Part shown: piece by piece, positions 16,973 through 39,743 of the stretch
How positions within the stretch are numbered: the stretch's first letter is position 1
Layout of the letters: every line of letters begins with the position of its first letter
Assembly (NCBI GenBank): GCA_028532855.1
Contig: JAQQAL010000024.1
Coordinates: forward strand, 62,001-126,000
DNA length: 64,000 nt
Reading direction: 5' to 3'
Origin: Candidatus Thalassospirochaeta sargassi
GTDB lineage: Bacteria; Spirochaetota; Spirochaetia; UBA9216
Translations under genes and position numbers: made by a program
The notes under the pieces: model-generated
The model's input: the letters and a program-made list of their open reading frames with translations, nothing else
Databases searched by the model: none
Told to the model about the DNA's origin: nothing

Positions 16973-17684
16973 CGCTGTAATCCTTTTTAATTCGCTTCTT
17001 GTTTTTTTCTCTAAGAGAGGTAATCTGTTTTCGCTGCTTTTTCAGCAGATCCTCCCACCTTCTGATTCCGTTTTTAAGCTGATCTGTTTTTTCAAAAAGA
17101 TGTTTTATTTCATCATTCATTAGGTTTAGTTTTTGATCTGTATCTTCCGGTGAAATTTTATCCGGGTTTTCTCTGATATTGATGAAATCCCTGAAGTAGT
17201 CTGAGATAGTTTTTATTTGATCAAGAGAATAGCCGAATAGCTGCAGATCCTTAATGAGGTTGCAGAATAGTACATAGTAATCACGGTATAACCTGAATCC
17301 TCCCTGACTCCTTAGATCCGGTTCGATAATCCCTTTTTCTTCCCAGTGTTTGATGGTCCTTGTACTTACTTCTATCTTTTCAGCAAGATTGCCGACAGTG
17401 AGATAATTTTTTTTCTCGTTATTCTTTTTCCCGGCGTTACCTGAATCCGAAGGCAGGCCGACTTTTTTGATGATCTTCTTCACTTCTTCAGGATCGTAGC
17501 CGAGATCGATAAGTGATTTAATCTTATCAATCATGACCAGACTTCCTTCAGAGAAAAATGGCGTTGAGTCGCTTGCACGCCCTTCAGGAATGAATATGCC
17601 TCTTGCCACCCATTCTTCGATTGTCTCAATTGGTGTATTGCTCTTCAGGGATAGATCATCAATATGATAAAAATTCATTTCCAT
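16962..17684 (-). CDS. Regulator with two tandem MerR-type DNA-binding domains
   Basis: 240 aa. Residues about 3-72 and about 93-162 are each a MerR-like winged helix: FYHIDDLSLKSNTPIETIEE with LGYDPEEVKKIIKK, then YLTVGNLAEKIEVSTRTIKH with FGYSLDQIKTI. The second copy is canonical (RTIKHWEEKGII, GFRLYRD); the first is degenerate. The C-terminus (about 190-240) is a basic coiled coil with no ligand domain. An AAGG Shine-Dalgarno lies seven bases before the ATG at 17684. It is co-transcribed with the hydrolase downstream, and a long inverted repeat lies just upstream. Confidence 0.75.
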   Translation of the reverse strand: MEMNFYHIDDLSLKSNTPIETIEEWVARGIFIPEGRASDSTPFFSEGSLVMIDKIKSLIDLGYDPEEVKKIIKKVGLPSDSGNAGKKNNEKKNYLTVGNLAEKIEVSTRTIKHWEEKGIIEPDLRSQGGFRLYRDYYVLFCNLIKDLQLFGYSLDQIKTISDYFRDFINIRENPDKISPEDTDQKLNLMNDEIKHLFEKTDQLKNGIRRWEDLLKKQRKQITSLREKNKKRIKKDYSDEN

Positions 17685-17690
17685 AAGTAT

Positions 17691-17734
17691 ACCTTAACGT
17701 ACAGTTACAATAAGATGTACCTGTACGTATAGGT
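17691..17734 (-). promoter_or_regulatory. Long inverted repeat upstream of the double-MerR gene
   Basis: Arms ACCTTAACGTACAG (17691-17704) and CTGTACGTATAGGT (17721-17734) match at 12 of 14 positions with a 16-bp spacer. The repeat ends only 7 bp before the regulator's ATG. A TTGACA -35 candidate is at 17759-17754, but a good -10 was not found at 17-19 bp. This is the likely operator of the double-MerR protein; its size would suit a protein with two DNA-binding domains. Confidence 0.55.
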
Positions 17735-17766
17735 TATTACTCTTTTTTTTAATTGTCAAGAAACAA

Positions 17767-22077: not shown

Positions 22078-22587
22078 ATGGCTTTAGTAAAGATAATCAG
22101 CGGAGCAAAGGACGCGGGAAAAACCAAAACCGCTGCTGCAATAGTGGAAGATCTGAAGAGGCAGGGCAAGAGAGTGGCCGGTTTTCTCTCTGTTGCCGAA
22201 ACGGTCTCTAAAAACAGCTATTTCCTTGTTAATATCGAAAGCGGAGAACGGATGAAGGCGGTCTCAATGATTAAACCTGCAGGGGGAGATTGCTGGATAC
22301 AGTATAATTTCAGCCGGTTCTGGTTTTCGGAGACGGCCTTCACAGCTGCAGGCAGACTTATTGACGAAATTGCCGTAAGCAGTCAGGACCATTTTCCAGA
22401 TGCTGTTTTTATTGATGAAATCGGTCCGCTTGAGCTTAGCGGCAAAGGATTCATGAATCCGTTAAAAAGGCTGCTGAAAGATTATAATGGTATAGTTTTT
22501 CTGGCTGTGAGAGAGAGTCTTGTTGATGTTATTATTTCAGAGCTTTGTTTGAAAACCCCGGAAATTATATCTGCTCAGGCCCAGTAG
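22078..22587 (+). CDS. THEP1-like P-loop nucleoside-triphosphatase
   Basis: 169 aa from the ATG at 22078; earlier in-frame ATGs lie inside mobB on the other strand. P-loop GAKDAGKTKT (9-18) and Walker B AVFIDEIGPLELSGKGF, typical of the THEP1/NTPase_1 family. Members hydrolyse NTPs, and their role is poorly known; some occur beside molybdenum genes. Pairing with mobB hints at metal-cofactor or nucleotide-linked function. Its 3' end overlaps the next convergent gene by 13 bp. Confidence 0.75.
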   Translation: MALVKIISGAKDAGKTKTAAAIVEDLKRQGKRVAGFLSVAETVSKNSYFLVNIESGERMKAVSMIKPAGGDCWIQYNFSRFWFSETAFTAAGRLIDEIAVSSQDHFPDAVFIDEIGPLELSGKGFMNPLKRLLKDYNGIVFLAVRESLVDVIISELCLKTPEIISAQAQ

Positions 22588-22817
22588 TTTGCTTTCCGTT
22601 TGCTGACCTTCATTCTGAAAATGCATCCTGCAATTGAACATGCCATCTTTATTTCGGCTTCGGGGTCCTTCGATGCAGTAACTACCACTACGCCGGAGTT
22701 CAATTTGACGGCTACATCGATAATTTTTGTGTTGCTCAATAGGGCCTTTCGGAGTAGTTCGGCGTTCTGTGCCGTTATATTGTCAACCAGATAGGTGTAT
22801 GCAGTATTTCTTGCCAT
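22575..22817 (-). CDS. Small conserved-looking protein of unknown function
   Basis: 80 aa from ATG 22817 (MARNTAYTYLVDNI). A longer TTG-started form would begin inside the promoter and is rejected. The pattern helix, strand (TKIIDVAVKLNSGVVVVTAS), helix (DPEAEIKMACSIAGCI), strand suggests a small ferredoxin-like alpha-beta fold. It has two Cys (MACSIAGC) and a basic end. No family recognised. The promoter is excellent and places the start of transcription at the ATG. Confidence 0.6.
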   Translation of the reverse strand: MARNTAYTYLVDNITAQNAELLRKALLSNTKIIDVAVKLNSGVVVVTASKDPEAEIKMACSIAGCIFRMKVSKRKANYWA

Positions 22818-22823
22818 ACATCC

Positions 22824-22852
22824 ATCATATAAAAAAGGAGATTTTTTGTCAA
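22824..22852 (-). promoter_or_regulatory. Near-consensus promoter, predicted leaderless
   Basis: Minus strand TTGACA (22852-22847), 17-bp spacer, TATGAT (22829-22824). Six bases separate the -10 from the ATG at 22817, so the expected +1 is the A of the start codon. This is the clearest sigma-70 promoter in the window. Confidence 0.75.
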
Positions 22853-22939
22853 AAAGCAAATTTTATGAATATAAGATTGATTTAATCGATGGAAGAGGTT
22901 AAATTTAAATAAATTGTAATAATTACAAGGAGTATGAAA

Positions 22940-23485
22940 ATGAAAAGGTTTATATTAACAGCGCTTGTTCTTGCCTCTGTTCTGCTTGTTTTTTCCTGTG
23001 GATCAGGCAAGGTAGCAGGAGTACCTGATTTTGTTCTTAACCCCCCGATCGCTGATGATGTTATCTACGGAGTAGGCTACGGCAACCAGTCCAAACTCGC
23101 TCTGTCGAAGACAGTTGCAGAGACAAATGCGCGTGCCGATATTGCACGACAGATTGAAACTACGATTCAGGCGTCTGTAACTGATTACGCACAGGAAGCC
23201 GGTGTTGATGATGGAACACAGGTTATAAGTTTTGTTGAGTCCGTAACTCGGGAAATCACCGATACAAAACTCAGCGGCGCCAAGCCCGTAAAGTTTGAGC
23301 AGGATAATGACGGCGGTATCTGGGTTCTTATGCAACTTGATAAGGCTGAATTAAGAGCTGCAGCGGAGGAAGCATTTGTAAGAAATGAAGATGCTGCTTT
23401 TGCTGAATTTAAGGCTGCCCAGGCTCTTGATAGACTTGATTACCAGCTTGAAAATAATCCTACGGTATCAGAACCCGTAAGATAA
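22940..23485 (+). CDS. LPP20-type lipoprotein
   Basis: 181 aa from the second ATG at 22940, because AAGGAG (22927-22932) is seven bases from it and only one base from the ATG at 22934. Lipoprotein signal with lipobox VFSC (MKRFILTALVLASVLLVFSC). The mature part is LPP20-like: VPDFVLNPPIADDVIYGVGY, repeated Ala-rich helix with NARADIARQIETTIQ, and a C-terminal WVLMQLDKAELRAA. Outer- or inner-membrane anchored, function unknown. It heads a tandem pair with the next gene, separated by a terminator. Confidence 0.82.
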   Translation: MKRFILTALVLASVLLVFSCGSGKVAGVPDFVLNPPIADDVIYGVGYGNQSKLALSKTVAETNARADIARQIETTIQASVTDYAQEAGVDDGTQVISFVESVTREITDTKLSGAKPVKFEQDNDGGIWVLMQLDKAELRAAAEEAFVRNEDAAFAEFKAAQALDRLDYQLENNPTVSEPVR

Positions 23486-23505
23486 TCCTGAATTAAATTA
23501 ATTAT

Positions 23506-23533
23506 AAAGCTGATCAGTCTTCTGATCAGCTTT
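23506..23533 (+). terminator. Rho-independent terminator
   Basis: Perfect 12-bp stem AAAGCTGATCAG / CTGATCAGCTTT, loop TCTT, followed by ATTCTTTT. Ends the first lipoprotein message; read-through to the second is possible as only 22 bp follow before its start. Confidence 0.85.
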
Positions 23534-23555
23534 ATTCTTTTGTAACGGGGGAAAT

Positions 23556-24923
23556 ATGTATAATAGAAAAACGCATCGAAAAAACTATCTTGTAATGATG
23601 ACGACGGCTTTGGCCGCCGTTTTACTGTTATTGGGGGCATGTTCCTCCGCACCGAATACTCCTTCCTGGATAACCGATTATCCCGCTGATAATGCTTATT
23701 ACATCGGGATAGGCGGTTCTTCCACCGGAAACGAGGCTGAAGATAATGAGATTGCCCGGAAGAGGGCCATGTCGAATCTTGCAGCCGAAATTTCAGCGGT
23801 AATTATGAGCGAAGTAAACTATCGCACAACAGAAGACAACAAGGGTAATGTAGAAGAGCAGGCAATGGAAGAGATTACACAGCTTGTTGAACAGAACCTC
23901 AAAGCTGTTGAAACAGTCGATGCCTTCTATTCCCCCGAAACTGGTTACTGGTATTATATGAGACTCAACAAGGCTGAATGGCTTGCCATACAGAAGCGTG
24001 AAATGGCCGACATTGAAAAACGTGTTAAGAACCTTGTTGAACCGGTTTTAGGGAATAACGGCAGAACAATAGCGGAAATACTTCAAGTATTGGTTGACGG
24101 ATGGTCAATAGTTGCAGAATCTGCTTACCCCGGAATGATTGATTCTACCCTTCTGGGAGAGCAGGGGAAGCTGATTGATCTGCTTGAGAGGCAGATTGCC
24201 ATGCATATCGGAGCCCTTTCAATCAGAATAGTAAACGAAGAGATTTCAGCAGAAGCCGGCAGACCCGTAAATCTGCAATTTAATGTTACATCATCTAAGC
24301 CCAACAAGGCGGGGCAGTTGCAGATTGATTTTCTTGAACGCAACAGTGATGAATTATTAATCAGCTGTACTACCCCCTCCAGCGGCATGTACGACGATAA
24401 TATTGATCTGTCCGGTCTCACTCCCGGTAAGAATTTTGTTACTGCAGTGCTGAACACCGATATTTTAGGCTTTGAAGGAAAGCCGATTCAGCTTAATCCT
24501 CCGAAATCCGACTTCATGATTGACCTTCAGAAGATTAAAACCGGCCTTGCCCTGAATTATACCGGAGATATTGAAGAGCTTGAAAATGAAACCGGAATAT
24601 ACGGAACGGTAAAGGCCCTGCTGTCCGATACTCTCCCTGTAAAGATTGAAAGTACCGGCGGACACACATTTGAGATTGATTTCAGACTCAATTACCGAAA
24701 CGCTCCGCCAAATGATTATGGTTTCACCATCATCTATATTAAGGCGAATATTTCGATCATCAGAAACGGCGCCAATGTCTACACCTATGAAACTGAAGAA
24801 TTCAAGGGTGCGGGGCTGAACTGGACCCAGGCGAACCAGAAGGGGCTTGATAAGCTTTTTGAGGATTTCGGTGAATACTCAGAGTTTGCCGAAGATGCCA
24901 ACAAGGCATTCAGTATTGATTAA
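23556..24923 (+). CDS. LPP20-domain lipoprotein, long form
   Basis: 455 aa. Lipobox LLGAC with a signal of about 29 residues, then an LPP20-type domain (PSWITDYPADNAYYIGIGGS, ARKRAMSNLAAEISAVI, YYMRLNKAEWLAIQ) like the preceding gene. A further 250 residues of beta-rich sequence follow (for example GRPVNLQFNVTSSKPNKAGQ, PVKIESTGGHTFEIDFRL). GGGGG Shine-Dalgarno. The first 150 residues and the preceding protein look like paralogues. Envelope role unknown. Confidence 0.75.
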   Translation: MYNRKTHRKNYLVMMTTALAAVLLLLGACSSAPNTPSWITDYPADNAYYIGIGGSSTGNEAEDNEIARKRAMSNLAAEISAVIMSEVNYRTTEDNKGNVEEQAMEEITQLVEQNLKAVETVDAFYSPETGYWYYMRLNKAEWLAIQKREMADIEKRVKNLVEPVLGNNGRTIAEILQVLVDGWSIVAESAYPGMIDSTLLGEQGKLIDLLERQIAMHIGALSIRIVNEEISAEAGRPVNLQFNVTSSKPNKAGQLQIDFLERNSDELLISCTTPSSGMYDDNIDLSGLTPGKNFVTAVLNTDILGFEGKPIQLNPPKSDFMIDLQKIKTGLALNYTGDIEELENETGIYGTVKALLSDTLPVKIESTGGHTFEIDFRLNYRNAPPNDYGFTIIYIKANISIIRNGANVYTYETEEFKGAGLNWTQANQKGLDKLFEDFGEYSEFAEDANKAFSID

Positions 24924-25127
24924 ACCGGGTTTTTTTGAGTGAAGAAAGCGGCTGAGGTTTGAACCAAGGAGTTTCACCTGTCATTTGACTATAAGTCTGA
25001 ACCGGGTGAAGCTGCAGATATTAAGAAGCCGGGGAATATTTAAGAATTACTGTTTTGTGATAAGCCCAATACATCTGATTGAAAAATATCTGCAGCAGCC
25101 TTCCGTGCTTCTTTTGTCAAGGAACAC

Positions 25128-25156
25128 TTGATATTCATCTGCAAAACAGTTAATAT
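25128..25156 (+). promoter_or_regulatory. Promoter of the preQ1-riboswitch transcript
   Basis: TTGATA (25128-25133), 17-bp spacer, TAATAT (25151-25156). The expected start of transcription, about 25163, is just before the riboswitch. The 200 bp upstream (24924-25127) contain nothing else I can support. Confidence 0.55.
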
Positions 25157-25164
25157 CTCCATCC

Positions 25165-25202
25165 GGCGGTCGCAGTTACCCGCCTTAACAAAACGACGGA
25201 GG
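25165..25202 (+). ncRNA. preQ1-I riboswitch
   Basis: The stem-loop GGCGGTCGCAGTTACCCGCC (25165-25184) followed by TTAACAAAACG (25185-25195) closely matches the preQ1 class I aptamer, in particular my memory of the Thermoanaerobacter tengcongensis sequence (GGGTCGCAGTAACCC...TTAACAAAAC). The A-rich tail folds back as a pseudoknot. The GGAGG Shine-Dalgarno (25198-25202) directly abuts it, so ligand binding should hide the ribosome site: translational off-switch. The downstream gene is a queuosine precursor transporter, as expected. Confidence 0.92.
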
Positions 25203-25209
25203 CAAATTC

Positions 25210-25890
25210 GTGAATATTCTTCTATGGTTTATAATGCTCATTATAAACTTTTCCGCAATAATGCTTGCATACAGGCTCTGGGGTAAACTGGGGCTCTTCA
25301 TCTGGATACCGATATCGGTAATTGCAGCCAACATTCAGGTAGTAAAAACTGTTGAAATCTTCGGATTTATAGCAACTCTAGGCAACATTGTTTATGCTAC
25401 ATCCTTTCTTGTTACAGACATTCTGAATGAAAACTACGGTAGAAAAGACGCTTCAAAGGCTGTCGGGATAGGTTTTTTTGCATTGATTTCTATGACTGCA
25501 CTCATGCAGTTTGCGCTGATGTTTGTTCCGCATGAATCGGATTTTGCACATGACAGCATACAGACAATCTTCGGCATTATGCCGCGCATCGCGCTCGGCT
25601 CGCTTGCCGCCTACGCACTTTCTCAGCTGCATGATGTATGGTCGTATGATAGATTGAAGGAAAAACGACCCGGGAAGCGCTACATATGGATAAGAAATAA
25701 CCTTTCAACGATGATAAGCCAGCTTATTGACAGCCTCGTTTTTACCCTGATAGCTTTTGCCGGTGTTTTTGAAACTGCTGTGCTTATGGAAATAATGCTG
25801 ACTACCTATATGTTCAAATGGATAGTGGCTGCTGCCGATACCCCGTTTATTTATTTGGCCCGCGACTGGAAAGATAAGGGGATTGTATAA
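25210..25890 (+). CDS. yhhQ: Queuosine precursor transporter (YhhQ/QPTR family)
   Basis: 226 aa, GTG start placed by GGAGG seven bases upstream. Six or more membrane helices; family landmarks include TLGNIVYATSFLVTDILNENYG, RIALGSLAAYALSQLHDVWSYD and the IRNNLSTMISQLIDSLVFTLIAFAG segment (quoted in part). It imports preQ0/preQ1 or queuine-type precursors for tRNA modification. Controlled by the preQ1-I riboswitch in its leader. Its last 44 bp overlap the convergent purine nucleoside phosphorylase gene. Confidence 0.93.
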   Translation: MNILLWFIMLIINFSAIMLAYRLWGKLGLFIWIPISVIAANIQVVKTVEIFGFIATLGNIVYATSFLVTDILNENYGRKDASKAVGIGFFALISMTALMQFALMFVPHESDFAHDSIQTIFGIMPRIALGSLAAYALSQLHDVWSYDRLKEKRPGKRYIWIRNNLSTMISQLIDSLVFTLIAFAGVFETAVLMEIMLTTYMFKWIVAAADTPFIYLARDWKDKGIV

Positions 25891-26686
25891 TAGCTGAGAT
25901 CAGGGCTGCGAATTTTTCAGCTATGGCATTCCCCACCTCGTTTACCTCTTCCGCTGAAACAGGCTGTTCAAGAATACCGGCAGCCATATTGCTTATGCAG
26001 GAGATGGCAATCACTTTTAATCCGGCATGAGACGCTGCTATAACCTCGGGTACGGTAGACATTCCAACTGTATCCGCCCCTATTATCTCAAGCATTCTAA
26101 TCTCGGCGGGTGTTTCGAATGAGGGGCCGGACATCCATGCGTATACACCTTTTTGCAGACCGATTCCGAGCTTTGCTGCGGATTTCTCAGCTATATCAAT
26201 AAGCTCCGGAGAGTATGCCCTGGTCATGTCTGGAAATCGCTCTCCAATTGTAATATCGTTAGGGCCTATCAGAGGATTTTGTCCTGTCAGATTTATATGA
26301 TCAGTAATAAGCATTAAATCTCCGGGGGTAAATCTTCGATTGATTCCGCCGCTGGCATTGGTAAGAAAAAGAGTGCTGCATCCTAGTTTTTTCAGAAACC
26401 GTACAGGATATGTAATCTGCTCCATTCTGTAGCCTTCATAATAGTGAAATCTACCCTGTAATATAATTATTTTAATTTTGTTCAGGTAACCGCAAACAAG
26501 CCTTGATGTATGTCCCGGAGCGGTTGATTCGGAGAAGCCGGGGATTTCGCTGTAGGGTATTGAGATGCCATCCCTCATTCTGCCGGCAATACTGCCGAGT
26601 CCGGAGCCCAGCACCAGGGCGATATCTGGAACTTTTCCGATCCGTGTTTTTACCATATCACAGGCGGAATCAATAATATTATCCAA
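25847..26686 (-). CDS. punA: Purine nucleoside phosphorylase
   Basis: 279 aa, trimeric PNP family (inosine/guanosine phosphorylase). Landmarks: ALVLGSGLGS (phosphate site, 23-32), PGHTSRLVCG, LQGRFHYYEGY, LTNASGGIN, GPSFETPAEIRM and VGMSTVPEVIAA. The start codon is TTG at 26686, with AAGGAG at a good distance. Salvages purine bases from nucleosides in the cytoplasm. Divergent from moxR. Confidence 0.93.
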   Translation of the reverse strand: MDNIIDSACDMVKTRIGKVPDIALVLGSGLGSIAGRMRDGISIPYSEIPGFSESTAPGHTSRLVCGYLNKIKIIILQGRFHYYEGYRMEQITYPVRFLKKLGCSTLFLTNASGGINRRFTPGDLMLITDHINLTGQNPLIGPNDITIGERFPDMTRAYSPELIDIAEKSAAKLGIGLQKGVYAWMSGPSFETPAEIRMLEIIGADTVGMSTVPEVIAASHAGLKVIAISCISNMAAGILEQPVSAEEVNEVGNAIAEKFAALISAIIQSPYLSSRGPNK

Positions 26687-26724
26687 TGGGTTTCTCCTTA
26701 TTTTGTAAACATAATACTAAGCGA

Positions 26725-26775
26725 TTGACGATTTGTCCTGATATTTTTATATTTATTTGATATAAAAACATCAGG
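26725..26775 (+). promoter_or_regulatory. moxR-bat operon promoter within a long dyad
   Basis: TTGACG (26725-26730), 17 bp, TATATT (26748-26753). A near-perfect inverted repeat, CCTGATATTTTTATAT (26737-26752) and ATATAAAAACATCAGG (26760-26775), 15 of 16 positions matching with a 7-bp spacer, covers the -10 and the expected start site, and its right arm runs into the AGGAG Shine-Dalgarno (26773-26777). Because only the right arm should be transcribed, it is more likely a protein operator than an RNA hairpin. Confidence 0.65.
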
Positions 26776-26783
26776 AGTAGAGC

Positions 26784-27785
26784 ATGTCAGACAATCAGCC
26801 TATAATTTTGCCGGATAAAAGTATTGAGCTGCCGAAGGAGCTTAAAAAGATCCTGGAAATTGAAAAAGAAATCAGAAAGGTTCTGATAGGGCAGGATAAG
26901 CTTGTAAACCGTTTGCTGATAGGCCTTATCTGTAATCAGCACGTGTTAATTGAAGGGGTACCGGGGCTTGCAAAAACCCTCAGTGTGAGCAGCCTTTCTC
27001 AAACTCTTGGTCTTGATTTCAACAGGATTCAGTTTACCCCTGATCTTTTACCAGCCGATATAATCGGAACCCAGATTTATAACCCCAAAACTGGTGATTT
27101 TTCACCGAAAAAGGGGCCAATCTTCAGTAACATTATACTTGCTGATGAAATTAACCGTGCGCCTGCAAAGGTGCAGTCCGCTCTGCTTGAGTCAATGCAG
27201 GAGAGACAGGTTACAATCGGCGATGAAACCTGGAAACTTAATCAGCCTTTTATGGTGATGGCAACACAGAATCCTGTTGAGCAGGAAGGGACATATCAAT
27301 TGCCGGAAGCGCAGGTTGACCGTTTCATGCTGAAGGTTAATATCAGTTATCCCGACAGAGCTGAAGAACTGCGTATTCTCAGACTGATGGCTAAATCTGC
27401 ATCCGTACCGGAGATTGAAACAGTTGCATCAGCTGATGATATTTTAAAACTGCGCGATTTTCTTGATTCGGTTCATATGGAGCCTGCTATAGAAGAGTAC
27501 ATTGTTGATCTGATTCAGGCCGGACGGGAACCTGAAGTCTATGGTATTGAAGCCGGCCATCTTATCAAATACGGTGCTTCTCCGCGTGCAACAATTTATC
27601 TGACAATGGCGGCTAAGGCTTACGCCCTTCTAAAGGGCCGCATGTATGTAGTGCCCGGGGATGTACTTGATATTGCTTACGACGTACTTAGACACCGGAT
27701 AATCCCGAGTTATGAGGCAGAGGCAGAGGGACTGTCTTCGGAAAATGTAATCAGGATGATTATTGAAAAGCTTCCAATGCCATAG
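26784..27785 (+). CDS. moxR: MoxR-family AAA+ ATPase
   Basis: 333 aa, chaperone-like ATPase. Walker A GVPGLAKT (58-65), Walker B ILADEINRAP (about 115-124), sensor ATQNPVEQEGTYQLPEAQVD. First gene of moxR-DUF58-batD-like-batA-batB-batC-batD-batE. MoxR proteins act with von Willebrand factor A (VWA) proteins in folding or metal insertion of envelope complexes. Confidence 0.95.
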   Translation: MSDNQPIILPDKSIELPKELKKILEIEKEIRKVLIGQDKLVNRLLIGLICNQHVLIEGVPGLAKTLSVSSLSQTLGLDFNRIQFTPDLLPADIIGTQIYNPKTGDFSPKKGPIFSNIILADEINRAPAKVQSALLESMQERQVTIGDETWKLNQPFMVMATQNPVEQEGTYQLPEAQVDRFMLKVNISYPDRAEELRILRLMAKSASVPEIETVASADDILKLRDFLDSVHMEPAIEEYIVDLIQAGREPEVYGIEAGHLIKYGASPRATIYLTMAAKAYALLKGRMYVVPGDVLDIAYDVLRHRIIPSYEAEAEGLSSENVIRMIIEKLPMP

Positions 27786-27800
27786 TGACCGGATACTATT

Positions 27801-28685
27801 ATGCCGATGCCGATAGACAAAGAAATTTTGAAGAAAGTTGAGCTTATCCGCATTATGACCAGGCAGAGGGTTACATCCGTCTTCGCTGGTGAATTTGAAA
27901 GTGCATTCAAGGGTGAAGGTCTTGAATTTGAAGAGGTTCGCGAATATCAACCGGGTGATGAGATAAGAACAATAGACTGGAATGTTACAGCACGAACCGG
28001 GTATCCCCATATAAAAAGGTACCGGGAGGAGCGGGAACAATCTATTTATTTTCTGGTTGATGTTTCGCCCTCCGGAGAGTTCGGGAGCGGAGGGCGTACG
28101 CGTTCTGAGCTTGCAGCTGAAATAGTTTCTGTACTGTCTTTCTCCGCATCAAACAACAATGATCGCACAGGTCTGTTACTGTTCTCCGACAAGCCCGAAC
28201 TTTTTATTCCTCCTGGCAAGGGTATGACTCATACGATGCACATGGTGCGCGAAATGCTGACCCATAAGCCTGAGGGGCACCGAACCTCGGTTTCAGCAGC
28301 TCTCGACTATCTCGGGCAGGTAGCTCACAGGCGAAGCATTGTTTTTATTCTATCCGATTTTTATGATCCGGGATTTCACCGCCAGTTGAGTATTTCAGCA
28401 AGGCGACACGAGATAGTCTGTCTGTATCTATATGACCCTGCGGAAAAAAGCCTGCCTGATGGCGGTCTCGTATCTTTTACCGATTCTGAAACCGGAAGGA
28501 GTACTTTACTTGATACATCAAGCCGAAGGGTCAGAACAGAATACGAAAGGCGCTTTTATGAGCGGCTTGATATGCTTAGATCTACATTCAGCCGTTACGG
28601 TTGTGATTTTCTGGATATTGATATATCGGAAGAATACATACGAAGTCTCTCGGAGTTTTTTATCCGAAGGGAGAAGAGACGGTGA
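27801..28685 (+). CDS. DUF58-domain protein
   Basis: 294 aa. Typical DUF58 block: EFESAFKGEGLEFEEVREYQ, PGDEIRTIDWNVTARTG and IKRYREEREQSIYFLVDVSP, followed by a degenerate VWA-like fold (DVSPSGEFGSGG replaces a full MIDAS). Almost always encoded directly after moxR, as here (15-bp gap). Probably a cytoplasmic or membrane-associated partner of MoxR. Confidence 0.92.
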   Translation: MPMPIDKEILKKVELIRIMTRQRVTSVFAGEFESAFKGEGLEFEEVREYQPGDEIRTIDWNVTARTGYPHIKRYREEREQSIYFLVDVSPSGEFGSGGRTRSELAAEIVSVLSFSASNNNDRTGLLLFSDKPELFIPPGKGMTHTMHMVREMLTHKPEGHRTSVSAALDYLGQVAHRRSIVFILSDFYDPGFHRQLSISARRHEIVCLYLYDPAEKSLPDGGLVSFTDSETGRSTLLDTSSRRVRTEYERRFYERLDMLRSTFSRYGCDFLDIDISEEYIRSLSEFFIRREKRR

Positions 28686-29581
28686 TGATTCAACAGCAGG
28701 TGGAAACAGTTTTGAGATCCTTTATCCTGACGGGGATATTACTTTTTTCCCTGTTAGGCTGTGATGCGTCAGAAGATCTGACTGTGTCTTCTGATGTAAT
28801 AACTGATACTTATTCAAGGAACGGCTACAGTCTTGAGATTAGCTACCCGGGCCGCGATATAGAATTTGGAAGCCGCATAAATATAACTATAGGAATTAGC
28901 AGACCGGCTGGTAAAGATTACATCCTTCTGCCGCCGGAAACCGGCTCAGCCGAGCAATACGCCAATACTGTCATAACCGGAGTGGAGCAAAGCGGTCCGA
29001 TTATTGATTCTGATGGTCGGGCTGTAGACACATACAGCTTCTCTGTTGAATCCTGGCTGCCCGGTGAACTCATCTTTCCGCCGGTGAGCCTTAGCTTTGG
29101 CGAAGAACTGAGCTCAAAAGAAATTGTGTTTCAGGTGCTTTCAGCCTTTGACGAGGAGGAAGAGGCATCGCTTGAACCAATATGGCAGCCGAAACCGCGA
29201 AGCCGGATACCGGTATGGATAGTAATTGCTGCAGTGTTTGTAATCCTTGCCGCGGTATCAGCTGTATTGATACTTATTCGAAGGCGTAGAAACAGAGCAG
29301 CTTCAGCAGAGCATGAACCAGGTGCCGCTGAACTGATTGAACTGTTCCGTACGCAATACATAGACTATGCCGGGGAGATTGATCAGAGGGCTGCTTTTGG
29401 GGCTTTTGAGAGATTGCCGAACGCCTTTGTCCCGTCGCAGCTGAGAGAGATTGTCGATGCGGCAAGGTTTTCTTCGGCTGGCGTTTCACCGGCAGAAGGA
29501 AAAAGAATATTGAACGAGCTGTTTGAAGCCTATCTTGCAGCAGCTGTGGAGCCGGTCGGGGAGGCTGAAGATGATTTTTGA
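28682..29581 (+). CDS. Membrane lipoprotein of the bat cluster (BatD/DUF4381-like)
   Basis: 299 aa. The start overlaps the previous gene by 4 bp. The N-terminus has a hydrophobic signal with lipobox LLGC (about residue 27), an Ig-like extracytoplasmic domain (GYSLEISYPGRDIEFGSRIN and following), a membrane helix (about 177-200, IPVWIVIAAVFVILAAVSAV) and a basic RRRRNR stop-transfer followed by a cytoplasmic helical domain. Corresponds in position to the DUF4381 or short BatD-like gene of other bat clusters. Confidence 0.65.
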   Translation: MMIQQQVETVLRSFILTGILLFSLLGCDASEDLTVSSDVITDTYSRNGYSLEISYPGRDIEFGSRINITIGISRPAGKDYILLPPETGSAEQYANTVITGVEQSGPIIDSDGRAVDTYSFSVESWLPGELIFPPVSLSFGEELSSKEIVFQVLSAFDEEEEASLEPIWQPKPRSRIPVWIVIAAVFVILAAVSAVLILIRRRRNRAASAEHEPGAAELIELFRTQYIDYAGEIDQRAAFGAFERLPNAFVPSQLREIVDAARFSSAGVSPAEGKRILNELFEAYLAAAVEPVGEAEDDF

Positions 29582-30614
29582 ATCCCCATGGGCATTCGGA
29601 TTTATACCGGTGACGGTCCTGATCTTTATTATCATCATCCTGAAACGCCGGAATCCTGACGGCGTGTTTTTTTCAAGTTCTTATCCGCTTTCAGTCGGGA
29701 TAAAATCTCTTCGTCAGCGAATAATCTGGCTGCCGGCAGCGCTGCTGTTTCTCGGATGCCTTCTGCTTATTACAGCCCTTGCGAGGCCCAGAGAACGGCT
29801 TGATGAGACAAAAAAGGTAACCAATGGAGTTGCAATCGAATTTGTGATTGACCGCAGTGGGAGTATGGCCGCTGAGGTTGAAAACAGAGGTAGTTTCACA
29901 AGGCGCATCGATATTGTTAAACAGAATATGCTGGATTTTATAAATGGCGATGGAGAGACCCTTAGTGGAAGGCCGGATGATCTTATCGGGCTGATTGCCT
30001 TTGCTCGATACGCTGATACACTTGCGCCGCTGTCTTTATCGCATGATGTGCTGAAGGATTTCACCTCAGGACTTGATGTCGTCACTACAAGGGAAGAAGA
30101 CGGGACTTCAATTGGAGATGCTCTTGCCCTTGCCGCAGCCAGATTGAAAACGGCTGGAGAGAATAATGATCCCGACAAGGGATATGATATAACAAGCCGG
30201 ATAATTATTCTGCTTACCGATGGTGAGAGCAATGCGGGAAATTATACTCCAAGAGAAGCTGCCGCGCTTGCAGCTCAATGGGGTGTCAGAATATATGCGA
30301 TAGGTTTTGGCGGGACAGCATATTATGAAACGGACGGACTCTTTGGTAAACGTAAAATACCTGTCGGCGCATCTGTGGATGAAGCGAGCCTGCGTGAGAT
30401 CGCTGAAATTACCGGCGGAATATATTTTGAGGCCGACTCAGCTGAAGAGCTGGGTGCGGTTTACGAAGAGATAGACAAGCTTGAGAAAACTGAAATTGTA
30501 TCTTTTACCGAATACAAATACAGGGAGCTTTTTGTAAGTTTCGCGCTTGCCGCAATCCTTTTTCTGGCCGCCGGCTTAATTCTTGATTCAACAATTTTCA
30601 GGAGGCTGCCGTGA
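29571..30614 (+). CDS. batA: BatA, VWA-domain membrane protein
   Basis: 347 aa from ATG 29571, chosen because GGGGAGG (29558-29564) precedes it; the frame continues upstream to 29523 without support. Membrane helices near 6-25 and 45-68, VWA domain with MIDAS DRSGS (VIDRSGSMA) and TDGES, and a C-terminal membrane helix. Overlaps the preceding gene by 11 bp. Aerotolerance-type protein that probably forms an inner-membrane complex with BatB. Confidence 0.92.
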   Translation: MIFESPWAFGFIPVTVLIFIIIILKRRNPDGVFFSSSYPLSVGIKSLRQRIIWLPAALLFLGCLLLITALARPRERLDETKKVTNGVAIEFVIDRSGSMAAEVENRGSFTRRIDIVKQNMLDFINGDGETLSGRPDDLIGLIAFARYADTLAPLSLSHDVLKDFTSGLDVVTTREEDGTSIGDALALAAARLKTAGENNDPDKGYDITSRIIILLTDGESNAGNYTPREAAALAAQWGVRIYAIGFGGTAYYETDGLFGKRKIPVGASVDEASLREIAEITGGIYFEADSAEELGAVYEEIDKLEKTEIVSFTEYKYRELFVSFALAAILFLAAGLILDSTIFRRLP

Positions 30615-31663
30615 TTAATGACTTCATTTTTCTGAATCCCGCTGCCCTGACTATGTTATGGATACCCGCCGCTGTTGCTGTTGCGGGTGTTTATGGTCTT
30701 ACCAGAAGCCGGCGGATTATGGCAAAATTGATGGCTGCAGACTGTGACGGTGAAAAGACCGCCAGAACGCGTGGAACTGATGTTTTCGCTCGGAAAGTAA
30801 CGGGCCTTGTACTTATAAGTTCTGCGCTGATTTTGATCATTATAGGTGCGGCTCGTCCAAGCTGGAACAGCACCGAAACAATAGTTTCAAAAAAGGGTCG
30901 TGATGTAGTCTTTGTAATTGATGTATCCAGAAGTATGCTGGCCGAGGACCTGTACCCTAACCGGCTGGGGAGGGCCAGGCTTGCAGTTCTTGATGCGCTT
31001 TCAGTAATGGACGGCGACCGTGTGGGGCTCGTTGCATTTGCCGGTTCATCGGTTGTGAAATGCCCCCTCACAATTGATTACAGCTTTTTCAGGATGGCCG
31101 TAGAAGACTTGTCTCCTGACGCGGTATCCATCGGGGGCAGCATGATTGGCGACGCACTGCGTAAAACTGTAGAGGATGTTCTTGCAGGCGGGAGCGGCGG
31201 CTACCGGGATATAATTCTTATAACCGACGGTGAAGATCAGGACAGCTATCCTCTTGAAGCCGCTGAAATGCTCGGCGAACTCGATATTAGACTTATTGCG
31301 ATAGGGCTTGGTGATGAGAATGAAGGCCGGCGGATACCTGTGACTGATAAAAACGGCAATAAGGTTTTTGTTACTCATGAAGGTCAGGAAGTATGGAGCC
31401 GCCTTGATGCCGATACCTTGAGGAAAATGACTTCGGCAACACCCGGGGGGAGATATCTGAATGTATCTACAGGCACCTTCGATATGGCTGAAATCTATTC
31501 CTCACTTATAAAAACGCGTGAAGCAAGGTTTATCGAAGAAGAAACCTCAATTGACTATGAAGAAGATTTCCAATATTTTCTCCTGCCTGCAATGATCCTC
31601 GTTCTCTATTATATCTTTATAAGTTTTGCTTATCCGCAAAAGCAGAAGAGGAGGCGTAAATGA
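30611..31663 (+). CDS. batB: BatB, VWA-domain membrane protein
   Basis: 350 aa, GTG start overlapping the batA stop (GTGA). Two N-terminal membrane helices, VWA domain with VIDVSRSMLAEDLYPNRLGR (MIDAS DVSRS), ITDGEDQ and C-terminal helix (LLPAMILVLYYIFISFA). Paralogous to BatA. The MIDAS has Arg where BatA has Gly, as in other BatB proteins. Confidence 0.92.
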   Translation: MINDFIFLNPAALTMLWIPAAVAVAGVYGLTRSRRIMAKLMAADCDGEKTARTRGTDVFARKVTGLVLISSALILIIIGAARPSWNSTETIVSKKGRDVVFVIDVSRSMLAEDLYPNRLGRARLAVLDALSVMDGDRVGLVAFAGSSVVKCPLTIDYSFFRMAVEDLSPDAVSIGGSMIGDALRKTVEDVLAGGSGGYRDIILITDGEDQDSYPLEAAEMLGELDIRLIAIGLGDENEGRRIPVTDKNGNKVFVTHEGQEVWSRLDADTLRKMTSATPGGRYLNVSTGTFDMAEIYSSLIKTREARFIEEETSIDYEEDFQYFLLPAMILVLYYIFISFAYPQKQKRRRK

Positions 31664-32517
31664 AAGTATTGCGAACTCTATTGGCTTCAGCTTTTATTTT
31701 ATCCGCAGCGGGTTTGTCTGCAGCGGGACAGTCTGAGGATGATATAGCCCGTGCGCTAGCCGGTGGAATTGAGGCTTTTAATAATGGTGAGATAGAAGCA
31801 GCTGCACAGGAGTTTCGTGCGGCTGCCCGCTCTGAGAATGACGACATTGCTGCCGCCGGTTATTTTAACGAAGGGACTCTACTTGCTGCCTCGGCAGAAC
31901 AGATTGAAGACCCGGAACAGAAGCGCAGCATACTTGAAAATGCTTATTCTTCCCTTCAGAGGGCAGTGGAGATAGGAGCCCTGCCGAAACAGCAGCAGCA
32001 GTCGGCCCGGAAGAATATGGAGATTGTCAGGCGTGAGCTTTCAAAGCTTCCTGAGCCCACCGAAAAGCAGCAGAACAGTGAGGGGCAGCAAAGCAGTGAG
32101 GGACAGCAAAGCAGTGAGGGACAGCAAAATCAGTCCGGCAGTGATACAAGTGACGGAGGAACCTCTCCAGAGGACATTCTCCAGAAGCAGAAAGACCTCA
32201 GCCGCAGGACCCAAGACGGAGTAGGCAACGGTAGCAGTCTTGCCGATGAGCAGAAAAAACTTCAAAGAGCTTCGGAAGAAGAAGGCTTGAATGAAGCTGC
32301 AATCAACCAGCAGAAGGCAGCAGAAGCGCTTCAGGAGGGAGACCGCGAAAAAGCGCAGGATTACCAGAAGGCGGCCGAAAAGGCTCTTGCAGAGGCTTCC
32401 GGCGGAAATAGCTCTGAAGAAGCGGAGGCCATTCTGGATTCCGAGGCCGAAAATAAGGCAAAACGAAATCGACTTGATATCAAGGGAGGTATAGGTGAAA
32501 CTGATCGCAACTGGTAA
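31660..32517 (+). CDS. batC: BatC-like periplasmic TPR protein
   Basis: 285 aa, starts 4 bp inside batB. Signal peptide (MKVLRTLLASAFILSAAGLS). Residues about 27-130 are TPR-like helices (GIEAFNNGEIEAAAQEFRAA). Then comes a low-complexity Gln/Ser/Glu stretch with three EGQQSS-type repeats, then charged coiled coil. Fits BatC, the small TPR protein of the cluster. Confidence 0.75.
   Translation: MKVLRTLLASAFILSAAGLSAAGQSEDDIARALAGGIEAFNNGEIEAAAQEFRAAARSENDDIAAAGYFNEGTLLAASAEQIEDPEQKRSILENAYSSLQRAVEIGALPKQQQQSARKNMEIVRRELSKLPEPTEKQQNSEGQQSSEGQQSSEGQQNQSGSDTSDGGTSPEDILQKQKDLSRRTQDGVGNGSSLADEQKKLQRASEEEGLNEAAINQQKAAEALQEGDREKAQDYQKAAEKALAEASGGNSSEEAEAILDSEAENKAKRNRLDIKGGIGETDRNW
32074..32127 (+). 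repeat. Three 18-bp tandem repeats inside batC
   Basis: Unit AGCAGTGAGGGACAGCAA; copies at 32074-32091 (three changes), 32092-32109 and 32110-32127 (identical). Encodes the SSEGQQ repeats, in frame, so copy number can vary without breaking the gene. Confidence 0.9.
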
Positions 32518-34240
32518 ACAAATATTGCTTTTTCTGATATTTTTATTCACAGCATCTGTTCTATCAGCACAGGGGTTGAGTCTTACAGCAGAGCTTAGCG
32601 ATGATCAAGTTTGGCTCGGAGATTCAGTCCAGCTTATGCTTTATCTGCAAGGCAGTGAAGAAGCTATATCTCCGGAGTTGAATATCCCCGGCGTTAATGT
32701 TGAGCCGCTCGGCGGTACGGTTCGAAGCAGCAGATCGGTGACAAGTATAAACGGAAAGGTTACCGAAGATATCAGGAAGGCATATGTCTGCAGTTACAGG
32801 CTTACACCCACCAGCCCCGGACGAATTGTAATTCCCTCTATTGAGGTTAATGTTGAAGGTCAGACGCTTAAAAGCAGTCAGGCGGTGTTAGCGGTTCGTG
32901 AACCGGCGGCATCGGATGACTTCAGCCTTGAACTGGAATTCGACAGGAATGCTGTTTATATAGATGAACGTGTTTATCTCAAGATAGGTTTCTTTTACGG
33001 GCAGAGCCTTAGGACTCTGGAATTAAGCATTCCGGGACTTGAAGGATTAAATTACGAAAGCATGCCGGTTGATGATGAAAGGGAAAGATATGAAATTCTT
33101 ATAAACGGAAATCCGGTTATTTTCGGTCGGGACGACAAGGGGAATTTCGCAGGTTTGTCGGCACTGATATCGATAAGGCCTGAAATGGCCGGACAGATAT
33201 TACTACAGAGATCAACAGCGTCATTTGAGAGTGTAAGTGGTTACAAGCGCGTTCAGGATTTTTTTGGACGTATTCAGAATCAGGAAGTATACAGCCGAAC
33301 TGTAATACCGGGAAACACCACGGTAGTTGATGTCCTGCCGTTTCCAAAGTTCGATCAACCGGAGGATTTTTTCGGACTCTCAGGCGATATTGATATTGAC
33401 GTTGTAGTCACTCCGCAGGAAGTTCACATCGGAGACCCGATTACCCTGACTCTCAACATCAACAAAATGAATAATCCTGATGTCGCAATTCCCCCTCTCG
33501 GCAGGTATCTAGGCGGAGGAATTGATATACCTGATACAAGGGCTTCCGCTGCAATAAACGGTTCTACAAAAACAATCACACAGACTATCCGGATCTCGGA
33601 GGACTGGGTGACAGAGATTCCTACTATCACTTTTCCATATTTTGATCCTGATGCTGAAAAATATAAGAATGCTTCATCAGCTGCAGTACCTCTTACCGTA
33701 CTGGAAACAAAGATTGTTACATCAGCTGAACTGGAAGGAGTCAGTCAGACTGGAGATCCAACCGGTAAGGTTCTGCTTGAGAGAAAGAAGGAGGGGATTT
33801 ATCATAACTATACAGGAAAAAAACTTTTACAGGATTCTATTCCCGTTATAGAGAGATTGCAGTCATCGTTTTTAATTAAATTTTTACTGCTGGTTCCTCC
33901 AGCCGCCTTCATTGCAGTTCTGATACTAACCCGGATTCGACCGCATATTCGTCGTCGTGCGTCTGCAAGGATTGATAAACATAGAGACCTCCGTAAACTT
34001 AAAAAGCAGTGGAAAAAGGTTGATTTCAGCAATGTACATGATGTTTTGAAGTTATTTAACAGGCAGGTTTCGGTGTATCTTGAGAGATGGGGCCTGCCGG
34101 ATGATGACAAGCTGATACATGTTCTTGAAGCTCTTGAAGCAGCTGTATACGGACGAGTTGAAATTGAGCCGTTACAAGCTCAGGAGCTTACAGCAGAGAT
34201 ATTAATTTTACTTGATGAAGGAGTGAAAGATGCGGAATAG
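32495..34240 (+). CDS. batD: BatD, oxygen-tolerance family membrane protein
   Basis: 581 aa. GTG start at 32495 with GGGAGG upstream, inside the batC 3' end (23-bp overlap). Signal peptide (LLFLIFLFTASVLSAQG), repeated BatD Ig-like domains (TAELSDDQVWLGDSVQLMLY, EVHIGDPITLTLNINKM), a membrane helix about 460-480 (FLLLVPPAAFIAVLILTRI) and a basic cytoplasmic tail. Typical BatD architecture. Confidence 0.9.
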   Translation: MKLIATGKQILLFLIFLFTASVLSAQGLSLTAELSDDQVWLGDSVQLMLYLQGSEEAISPELNIPGVNVEPLGGTVRSSRSVTSINGKVTEDIRKAYVCSYRLTPTSPGRIVIPSIEVNVEGQTLKSSQAVLAVREPAASDDFSLELEFDRNAVYIDERVYLKIGFFYGQSLRTLELSIPGLEGLNYESMPVDDERERYEILINGNPVIFGRDDKGNFAGLSALISIRPEMAGQILLQRSTASFESVSGYKRVQDFFGRIQNQEVYSRTVIPGNTTVVDVLPFPKFDQPEDFFGLSGDIDIDVVVTPQEVHIGDPITLTLNINKMNNPDVAIPPLGRYLGGGIDIPDTRASAAINGSTKTITQTIRISEDWVTEIPTITFPYFDPDAEKYKNASSAAVPLTVLETKIVTSAELEGVSQTGDPTGKVLLERKKEGIYHNYTGKKLLQDSIPVIERLQSSFLIKFLLLVPPAAFIAVLILTRIRPHIRRRASARIDKHRDLRKLKKQWKKVDFSNVHDVLKLFNRQVSVYLERWGLPDDDKLIHVLEALEAAVYGRVEIEPLQAQELTAEILILLDEGVKDAE

Positions 34241-35036
34241 AGTGATCTTTTCTATTATTTCAGTTCTCATTCTAATTAACATTGCCGCATCTCTCCAGGC
34301 AGAAGATGACGGTGTTGAAGTGCTGCTTGAGAATGCAGAAAAAGCTTTTCGAAAAGGAAACGAACTCCTGGATATCAATCCGGAACAGGCTGCGGAATCA
34401 TATCGCGCCGCTGTTGTTTTCTATGAGTCTGTGATATCCGGCGGAACAGTAAATGCCGCATTATACTATAATACTGCCAACTGTTATCTGAGGCTGGAAA
34501 AAATTGGTTACGCAATTCTTAACTACCGGAGAGCATTGCTCTATGACCCATTTGACAGGCAAATAAGATATAATCTGGACTATGCGCGGGACCTGCAGAA
34601 AAATGATTTTGAATCAAGAGCTGAAAATGAAATACTTCGCATACTGTTTTTCTGGCATTACCTCATACCGTTTGGCTGGAAAACAATTGTTCTGATTTCT
34701 GCAAATCTTATCTTCTGGACAGCTTTTATACTGCAGCAAATTGGATTGAGACTGCGAAACACCCTGATAATTCCGTTGATTATACTCATTGCGTTCGGTG
34801 TTTCGCTGGGATTTGATATCAGAAGTTCAGAGATTGAATACGGTGTGATAACTGCAGACAGTACTATCGGAAGACTTGGCGATAGTCTTAGCTATGAATC
34901 TGCCTTTGATGCTCCGCTATACGAAGGGGTTGAGTTTAAAATAAAGCAGAGAAGGGTCGGGTGGATTCTTGCTGAACTGCCGGACGGTGCGCTGGTCTGG
35001 TTTGAAGAGGATGATTGCGGTATTGTTGAAGAATAG
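34230..35036 (+). CDS. batE: BatE, TPR and SH3-like membrane protein
   Basis: 268 aa, overlaps batD by 11 bp. Signal/anchor at the N-terminus, TPR repeats about 30-130 (NAALYYNTANCYLRLEKIGY, AILNYRRALLYDP), two membrane helices about 150-190, and a C-terminal SH3b-like domain (VEFKIKQRRVGWILAELPDG). Last gene of the cluster; a terminator follows. Confidence 0.88.
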   Translation: MRNRVIFSIISVLILINIAASLQAEDDGVEVLLENAEKAFRKGNELLDINPEQAAESYRAAVVFYESVISGGTVNAALYYNTANCYLRLEKIGYAILNYRRALLYDPFDRQIRYNLDYARDLQKNDFESRAENEILRILFFWHYLIPFGWKTIVLISANLIFWTAFILQQIGLRLRNTLIIPLIILIAFGVSLGFDIRSSEIEYGVITADSTIGRLGDSLSYESAFDAPLYEGVEFKIKQRRVGWILAELPDGALVWFEEDDCGIVEE

Positions 35037-35045
35037 AGCATGAAA

Positions 35046-35075
35046 AAAGGGAACTGAAAAACATCAGTTCCCTTT
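35046..35075. terminator. Bidirectional terminator between batE and fabV
   Basis: Stem AAAGGGAACTGA / TCAGTTCCCTTT with 6-base loop. On the minus strand the stem is followed by a run of T (end of fabV); on the plus strand the tail is weaker. Confidence 0.8.
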
Positions 35076-35095
35076 GTAAATTATAAATCCCGGAT

Positions 35096-36262
35096 TTAAC
35101 GAGGGTCTACGTCGGCTTCGTAGTCGACCCCTGGGACCTCAAAGCCGTGCATATTCATAAAATCAGCGTGATAGCCTTCGATATCACTGAGTGCTTCAAT
35201 ATTATCATCATTGGCTTTATTCCAGATTTCATCTACGGCAGCCTGTACGTCTTCACGCATCTCCCAGTCATCCATTCTTACCCTGTTTTCATCGTCAATT
35301 GTAAGATTCCCTTTATACAACCCCCGGAAAAATCTGTCCATCTGCTCAATACATCCCTCATGAATATTTTTATCTTTCATAACCCTGAACAGGATTGAGA
35401 TGTAAAGTGATATAGCAGGAATCACAGCAGCTGCTCTGGTTACAAGCGCTTTGTTAACCGATGTAAAGGCTGAACCTCCAAGAGCGGCCGCGAGCTTGTT
35501 GTCTAGTTTTTGTGCGGTTGCTTCAAGATGTTTTTTCGCGTTGCCGATTGTTCCGTTACGGTAAATCGGCATAGTCATATCAGGGCCAATGTAGGAGAAG
35601 GCTGATGTCTTTACACCTTCTGAAAGTACATCAGCTTCAAGAAGAGCATCGATCCAGAGCTGCCAGTCTTCGCCGCCCATAACCTTTTCTGTGTTCGAGA
35701 TCTCCTCTTCGCTGGCAGGTCCGATTTCCATCGTGATGATCTTGCCGCTCATAGTATCAAGGGCTCTGGATCTATATTCCCCGCCTATAGGCTTAAGTGA
35801 TGATCTGTACATCGTGCCGTCTGCGGGGTCAACCCTCACGCCTGAGGCAAGACTGTAGATTACAAGGTCTACCTTTCCGAGACCCTCTTTTATTGCTTCT
35901 ATAGTCTGATACTTTAATTCATTTGAGAAGGCATCGCCGTTAATACTTTTCGAAAACAGACCCGCATCAGCAGCCTCTTTATCGAAAGCTTTCATATTGT
36001 AGTAACCCGGGGTACCGGGACGTTTTTCTGCACCTTCTTTTTCAAAGAAAACACCGATAGTAGCTGCACCGCAGCCAAATGCCGCTGCAATACGGCAGGC
36101 AAGGCCGTAGCCTGTAGAAGAGCCGATAATTAACGCACTTTTAGTGCCTTCGATTCTTCCATTTTTCTTTACGTAATCTATTTGTCTGTGTACCTCAGCT
36201 GCACAGCCTTCAGGGTGCGCTGTGAGGCAGATGTTATTTCTGATTCTGGGTGATATTACCAC
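35096..36262 (-). CDS. fabV: Trans-2-enoyl-CoA/ACP reductase FabV
   Basis: NADH-dependent enoyl reductase, 388 aa, last step of the fatty-acid elongation cycle. Nucleotide motif GSSTGYGLA (48-56), the Y-x8-K active site (Y234, K243: YRNGTIGNAK), N-terminal MVISPRIRNNICLTAHPEGC, and HAD region SVNKALVTRAAAVIPAI. The treponemal homologue is known as trans-2-enoyl-CoA reductase. It follows fabZ but is separated by a hairpin at 36301-36318, so its level may differ from the upstream fab genes. No fabI, fabK or fabL is in the window. Confidence 0.94.
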   Translation of the reverse strand: MVISPRIRNNICLTAHPEGCAAEVHRQIDYVKKNGRIEGTKSALIIGSSTGYGLACRIAAAFGCGAATIGVFFEKEGAEKRPGTPGYYNMKAFDKEAADAGLFSKSINGDAFSNELKYQTIEAIKEGLGKVDLVIYSLASGVRVDPADGTMYRSSLKPIGGEYRSRALDTMSGKIITMEIGPASEEEISNTEKVMGGEDWQLWIDALLEADVLSEGVKTSAFSYIGPDMTMPIYRNGTIGNAKKHLEATAQKLDNKLAAALGGSAFTSVNKALVTRAAAVIPAISLYISILFRVMKDKNIHEGCIEQMDRFFRGLYKGNLTIDDENRVRMDDWEMREDVQAAVDEIWNKANDDNIEALSDIEGYHADFMNMHGFEVPGVDYEADVDPR

Positions 36263-36300
36263 ATTTTCTCCATTACTGCTGTTAAGCAGGAAAAAAGTAA

Positions 36301-36318
36301 GGCCGGCAAATGCCGGCC
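36301..36318 (-). terminator. Hairpin between fabZ and fabV
   Basis: GGCCGGC / GCCGGCC stem with 4-base loop; on the minus strand it is followed by TTACTTTTTT. Likely terminator or attenuator that lowers read-through from fabZ into fabV. Confidence 0.75.
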
Positions 36319-36323
36319 GTTAA

Positions 36324-36758
36324 TTATTTCATATTGTCGGCACTGCCTAATAGACAAAGCCAGGTCGCTTCCGCCGCCACATCGTCGCCGACGTAAGCTT
36401 TTCCGGTTTGTTTAATCATCGCTTTGGAAACTCTCATGTTCTCCACTTCGACTCTTACAGTGTCGCCCGGTCTTACCTGCTGTCTGAACTTAACCTTTTC
36501 TGCTGTAGCAAAAAAGAATATCTGTCCAGGAGGAATAAGACCGGCCTTGCCAATTCCAGCTCCACCGCACTGGGCCATGGTTTCAACCAGAATTACCCCT
36601 GGTACAACCGGATAATCCGGAAAATGGCCTTTGAAGAAAAAATCATCTTCGGTGAATTTCCGGTAACCCGTATAGGTTCCGTCCTCATTAACATCTACTG
36701 AATCAACAAAGAGAAAAGGCTCTCTGTGCGGCAGTAGTTTTTTAATCTCGTCTGACAT
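36324..36758 (-). CDS. fabZ: 3-hydroxyacyl-ACP dehydratase FabZ
   Basis: 144 aa, hot-dog fold. LLPHREPFLFVDSV start, catalytic His45 in GHFPDYPVVPGVILVETMAQ and Glu59. Dehydrates beta-hydroxyacyl-ACP. Starts 3 bp after fabF. Confidence 0.95.
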   Translation of the reverse strand: MSDEIKKLLPHREPFLFVDSVDVNEDGTYTGYRKFTEDDFFFKGHFPDYPVVPGVILVETMAQCGGAGIGKAGLIPPGQIFFFATAEKVKFRQQVRPGDTVRVEVENMRVSKAMIKQTGKAYVGDDVAAEATWLCLLGSADNMK

Positions 36759-39700: not shown

Positions 39701-39743
39701 CAAAAATACTCCCTCTGTATTAAATATTATATTTTACATGATA

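Follow-up and report, generated by a model that had tools for sequence, protein, structure and literature searches.

It is ordinary for regulators to bind dyads close to promoters, in spirochaetes as elsewhere. The TroR locus of Treponema denticola is described as having a sigma70-like promoter and 18 bp of dyad symmetry, under repressor control (PMC2628430), and the ospC operator of Borrelia burgdorferi is likewise described as an inverted repeat near a promoter with a regulatory role (PMC3700930). Bat operons are widespread, and little is known of their control. The one direct bat-operon regulator that we found in the open-licence literature is PhoP of Riemerella anatipestifer, which is reported to bind before moxR and to control the Bat operon (PMC9603813); a second paper on that species suggests that MoxR feeds back negatively on its own expression at the transcript level (PMC11834572). 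By title and abstract opening, we recognized no paper in that literature as naming a bat-operon regulator from a spirochaete. Independent promoters for the bat genes of Leptospira biflexa are hypothesised by the authors of one report, who also note that microarray data on an L. interrogans mutant in PerR showed bat transcripts unchanged (PMC3557215).

Here we analyse an inverted repeat over the promoter of a moxR-bat operon in Candidatus Thalassospirochaeta sargassi, within a 64,000-nucleotide stretch of its genome (the window). Like the TroR site as described, it is a dyad at the promoter of a spirochaete locus; the TroR site has a repressor, whereas the moxR-bat arms are longer and of other sequence, and Pfam finds no regulator gene in the operon. 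The ospC repeats are placed upstream of their promoter (PMC3700930), whereas the moxR-bat dyad spans the -10 element and the predicted start. The Riemerella system has in common with a regulated version of this locus that a regulator acts at a moxR-bat promoter (PMC9603813, PMC11834572). By contrast, PhoP is a response regulator from another phylum, the most conserved bases of its motif are TTTAACA, and the text available from those reports mentions no long dyad. As a 41-bp site over a conserved promoter, the dyad offers a concrete bait for a spirochaete regulator, and the repeats, which are present at this promoter in three of four relatives but differ among them, constitute a small test of sequence versus symmetry retention.

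An inverted repeat over the moxR-bat promoter

The repeat has 17-base arms, with 16 of 17 positions paired, and a 7-base spacer (Table 1). An earlier note had described a near-perfect 16-bp dyad, CCTGATATTTTTATAT (26737-26752) and ATATAAAAACATCAGG (26760-26775), and these arms are present with 15 of 16 pairs; an extra pair, T26736/A26776, lengthens them to 17 bases. The span that it gave, 26737-26777, ends one base too far. It was also right that the repeat overlaps the -10 element, the predicted start (about 26760, judged from the -10) and part of the ribosome site, the first four Shine-Dalgarno bases (AGGA) falling inside the right arm. The promoter call combines a consensus match with conservation, and the start is predicted. 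TTGACG and TATATT, 17 bases apart, match the consensus at 10 of 12 positions, with the -10 within the dyad. A weaker promoter-like match toward moxR (26649-26677, 9/12) lies upstream of the dyad, and the same consensus scan counts 23 promoter-like matches in the region, against 16.9 in shuffles.

Table 1. Features of the moxR-bat promoter region (window coordinates)
Feature	Position	Strand	Sequence, basis or remark
-35 element of moxR-bat promoter	26725..26730	+	TTGACG; consensus scan; TTGAC invariant in 4/4 genus orthologues
Dyad left arm	26736..26752	+	TCCTGATATTTTTATAT; in promoter spacer and most of -10
-10 element	26748..26753	+	TATATT; consensus scan; invariant in 4/4 genus orthologues
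Dyad spacer (loop)	26753..26759	+	TTATTTG
Dyad right arm	26760..26776	+	ATATAAAAACATCAGGA; predicted start near its first base, judged from the -10
Shine-Dalgarno of moxR	26773..26777	+	AGGAG; sequence; GGAGT invariant in 4/4 orthologues
moxR, AAA+ ATPase, first gene of operon	26784..27785	+	Pfam AAA_3, AAA_lid_2
Seven more operon genes	27801..35036	+	Open reading frames; Pfam match for 4/7, none for 3
Purine nucleoside phosphorylase gene, divergent	25847..26686	-	Pfam PNP_UDP_1

The proposed eight-gene operon (26784-35036) fits the list of open reading frames, and Pfam matches five of the eight products. After moxR the order is DUF58, an unnamed gene, a BatA-like VWA gene, a second VWA gene, an unnamed gene, BatD and a last unnamed gene; by reading of the products, the gene after the second VWA appears TPR/BatC-like and that after BatD BatE-like, and one VWA product has a BatA N-terminus slightly below the Pfam cut-off. 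The dyad sits within the 97 bases that separate moxR from the divergent phosphorylase gene, whose candidate -35 (AGGACA, 26739-26734, 9/12) touches the left arm. The other four genus members, two of whose genomes are 81% complete, hold only distant homologues of the phosphorylase gene, and G001 of the family has a homologue at 52%; the presence of this gene beside moxR may reflect either gain or repeated loss. We rejected the idea that the dyad was brought by the phosphorylase gene, as relatives have only distant matches to it and yet G003 has a dyad.

The inverted repeat at the moxR-bat promoter goes far beyond chance. Three distinct places in the window have arms of 16 bases with no more than one mismatch and a spacer of 0-30 bases, namely this dyad, the palindrome at 39757 and a stem at 42153 that resembles a terminator; 20 dinucleotide shuffles of the window contain none. 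Across a 384-kb sample of the genome, made up of the window and 16 20-kb stretches, seven dyads with spacers of up to 20 bases reach an ungapped score of at least 14, the moxR-bat dyad included. None of 300 shuffles is as good in gapped stem score, and 26720-26783 folds as single-stranded DNA at -10.7 kcal/mol (z -6.8; 0/200 shuffles equal). Folding energy alone separates the dyad poorly from other upstream regions: it ranks only 8th of 171, and energies of -10 kcal/mol or below are found in 15/106 upstream regions of this genome (G000), 8/26 of G003 and 4/34 of G005, a set that takes in terminators and probable coding stretches. We also rejected an intrinsic terminator, since there is no T-run, GTAGAGCA following the right arm and CAAATCGT standing on the other strand, and the site is absent from the terminator list.

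Conservation, controls and copies

The family comprises seven genomes here, and a clear moxR orthologue is present in four of the five genus members; those of the three relatives (G003, G005 and G006) are 79-80% identical to that of G000, and G004 has only paralogue-like matches. The aligned leaders all have TTGAC, TATATT and GGAGT before ATG in common, with 17-18 bases from TTGAC to TATATT, and the conservation of the first two elements supports the predicted promoter. In G003, CGGTCTGTCTTTTTATT and AATAAAAACGGCAGACCG flank that -10 and pair with a single mismatch once one bulged base is allowed; this dyad reaches a DNA-fold z of -5.35 and a gapped score of 11 (0/300 shuffles), and the leader has no ungapped stem of score 9. 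Common to the G000 and G003 dyads are the promoter and, within the right arm, its inner part ATAAAAAC, but not the outer arms (CCTGAT versus CGGTCTG), which do not derive from one ancestral sequence, nor the position of the left arm, which falls at non-matching places in the aligned leaders. In G000 the left arm takes in most of the -10 and the right arm ends with the Shine-Dalgarno; the -10 of G003 is in the spacer, with the left inner arm upstream of it and the Shine-Dalgarno 3' of the dyad. G006 has a strong hairpin right after its predicted start (score 12, 0/300 shuffles, DNA z -3.15). The G005 leader, with the promoter conserved, has no dyad (score 7, reached by 87/300 shuffles; z 0.40). 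The G000 left arm resembles the promoter spacer of G005 (TCCTGATATTTTTATATT versus TCCTTATAGTTTTTATATT), where there is no right arm, which suggests that the left arm is probably old and its right complement newer.

A gapped score of at least 11 on 130-base leaders is reached by three of four genus moxR leaders, a generous count that pools the downstream hairpin of G006 with the promoter-spanning repeats, versus 4/162 other upstream regions, taken from stretches of G000, G003 and G005 and picked post hoc, after the data had been seen. The raw control count was 6/164, from which the moxR and phosphorylase regions, holding the same dyad, were dropped; two of the remaining four flank one palindrome, that at 39757. 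At the control rate, our own post hoc arithmetic gives a chance of about 2 in 1000 for at least two of three relatives and about 7 in 100 for at least one of three at score 11, the latter being all that the promoter-spanning form of the repeat shows. Paralogous moxR leaders score 4-6, and none of eight of them (out of 18, L007-L024) reaches 11. Outside the genus, 1/26 moxR leaders reaches 11 by gapped score on 130 bases (L105) and 3/26 by ungapped score on 220 bases (L105, L106 and L116). These 26 Spirochaetia leaders are the loci kept from 34 matching genomes of 394, with four further matches, without a locus, outside the set; for some of the distant leaders the start codon is a scripted guess.

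No second copy of the dyad occurs in the 3,835,059-base genome with up to three mismatches allowed. The inner core, TTTTTATAT-N3-16-ATATAAAAA, is found at no other place in G000 (G004 has one elsewhere), and a composite motif that combines the promoter with the inner right arm, drawn up from the G000 and G003 sites, TTGAC-N17-20-TATATTTAT-N0-12-ATAAAAAC, has no other match in the seven family genomes. The outer motif CCTGAT-N22-32-ATCAGG is present at 18 places in G000 versus one for its reversed control; by eye, none of the other 17 has a two-sided AT core, and neither of two AT-rich loci read with their flanks (L201, L202) has one. A single half-site with up to three mismatches gives at least 119 matches versus 40 for the reversed control, both dyad arms counted, and no other pair within 60 bases is seen among the matches listed; ATG, GTG or TTG follows the half-site by 2-10 bases at 5/17 plus-strand loci of L150-L177, as a raw count. 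Pfam detects no DNA-binding domain in the eight operon products, three of which matched no family. A repeat or mobile element was rejected on the single copy, and a regulon of further sites was rejected because the inner core is single in G000 and the other CCTGAT/ATCAGG places have, by eye, no two-sided AT core. The earlier suggestion that the dyad be sought in close relatives and elsewhere in the genome thus found a partial answer in the former, G003 having a looser dyad across the moxR promoter, G005 none and G006 a downstream hairpin, and a single copy in the latter.

Operator, replication by-product or hairpin

We tentatively favor reading the dyad as an operator specific to this operon, where a bound protein would block RNA polymerase at the moxR-bat promoter, although we regard this as somewhat short of probable. 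A dimeric or tetrameric DNA-binding protein would bind both arms, which flank the melting region, and once bound could either keep RNA polymerase off or stop promoter opening; its release in response to a signal would then switch on all eight genes. The reading builds on direct observations, namely the dyad, the conserved promoter beneath it, its single copy and the looser dyad of G003. Conservation of the promoter in all four orthologues makes transcription of the left arm improbable, so that the target is likely to be DNA and not RNA; the proposal that only one arm is transcribed gains support from the same conservation, which argues against an RNA hairpin. An inverted repeat exceeding chance at a promoter, as expected of a dimeric regulator's site, is what we find, the G003 dyad covers the same promoter with the inner right arm in common, and strong inverted repeats are concentrated in genus leaders relative to controls. 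Against an operator, the G003 dyad needs a bulge and its arms are shifted and different, half-site matches outnumber those of the reversed control, and 17 nearly perfect bases per arm are longer than most dimers need. Further copies or a linked regulator gene, usual though not required for the operator of a dimeric regulator, were not found in the genome or, by Pfam, in the operon. The differing arms, the single copy and the absence in G005 weigh against a conserved regulon. The idea of a protein operator, already put forward in the earlier note, therefore draws support from the conserved promoter and the bulged G003 dyad, and loses some to the dyad-free G005 leader, the differing arms and the single copy. 

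The non-matching positions of the left arms in G000 and G003 led us to weigh the operator lower and a quasi-palindrome higher. Template switching during replication could have perfected a quasi-palindrome at an AT-rich promoter with no regulator involved, a possibility that we rank just below the operator and consider nearly as likely. Its ingredients would be the T-run before the -10, the A-run after the start, and TCCT in the spacer versus AGGA in the ribosome site. Template switching is reported to create and maintain hairpins (PMC8794818), and the resemblance of the left arm to the G005 spacer, the variation of arms and positions among relatives while complementarity recurs, and the single copy with no regulon found are all consistent with such an origin. 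A random process, however, is unlikely to concentrate strong repeats upstream of this operon, where three of four leaders have one, and to leave few elsewhere, unless the promoter is a local hot spot. Symmetry could also matter in its own right, through a putative cruciform or non-template-strand hairpin that forms under negative supercoiling without a dedicated protein and thereby couples the promoter to supercoiling. The AT-rich 17-base arms, the short spacer, the single-stranded fold energy and the outer arms, in which G000 and G003 have pairing but not sequence in common, are in line with this structure, but the repeat is absent in G005 and dyads at bacterial promoters are mostly sites for proteins, and we consider it improbable. 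We give similarly little weight to a genus-wide version, in which the moxR-bat promoter would be selected for a repeat able to form a hairpin, whatever the sequence of its arms, and expression would be tied to supercoiling; the element would then act through DNA (or nascent-strand) structure.

An RNA hairpin is unlikely as well. A transcript starting upstream of 26736 would contain both arms and hide AGGA, making moxR translation dependent on temperature or ligand. The RNA of 26725-26800 has a predicted fold of -22.2 kcal/mol (z -5.1) in which the Shine-Dalgarno is paired, the weaker promoter-like match lies upstream of the dyad and points toward moxR, and the G006 hairpin is entirely within the predicted 5' leader. 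By contrast, the better promoter match, in the dyad and conserved in all four orthologues, puts the predicted start at the right arm, whereas the weaker one sits at the phosphorylase gene, which is absent here in relatives; RNA from the predicted start has no unusual structure (z 0.24), and the G003 Shine-Dalgarno lies outside its dyad. Rfam gives no match in 22500-36500 at the gathering threshold, and on that result we rejected a known RNA family such as a thermometer or riboswitch.

Other repeats and motifs

Before moxR in other Spirochaetia families, TGTAAT or TGTAAC words are present (leaders L105, L106, L107, L108, L110, L109, L112, L113 and L114, and further L116, L117, L120, L122 and L129), which presumably resemble the boxes of PhoB/OmpR-type regulators. 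CTGTAA occurs in 11/30 moxR leaders versus 1.4 expected and TGTAAC in 9/30 versus 1.0, in genomes that are related and not independent; the moxR leaders of the window's own genus have none of these words. In one genus the TGTAAT-type words repeat 11 or 22 bases apart, as in TGTAATATATCTGTAATGTTCATGTAAT of L105, and the L110 leader has tandem GC-rich repeats, with units containing GGTCGGGACTTCGTCCCTGCTCGGCCATGCAACCGTGGCT, between the TGTAAT words and moxR. Such words are of interest alongside PhoP control in Riemerella.

Several further repeats were seen. The moxR leader of G006 (L003) has its hairpin, TGAAAATCTCCAAAGGCTGTAAGTCTTTAGAGATTTTCA, close to the predicted mRNA 5' end. The palindrome at 39757-39787, TTTACTTATCGGTCAATGACCGATAAGTAAA, is bounded on one side by the minus-strand gene 38774-39703 and on the other by an open reading frame of the plus strand at 39890; a second, imperfect copy follows at about 39798-39822. 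This palindrome looks like a repressor operator near genes read as fatty acid synthesis. A long imperfect palindrome, ACGTACAG...CTGTACGT, occupies 17690-17735 directly before the minus-strand gene 16962-17684, which reads like a MerR regulator, so that the palindrome is perhaps its own operator. Inverted repeats with GGCACCTCTAA arms occur in two spirochaete families, in L212 (about 10231-10315) and in the moxR leader of L111, and are perhaps a shared small repeat element. Finally, two tandem hairpins with TTAGTC/GACTAA in common lie at 57827-57911, before a large open reading frame at 57912.
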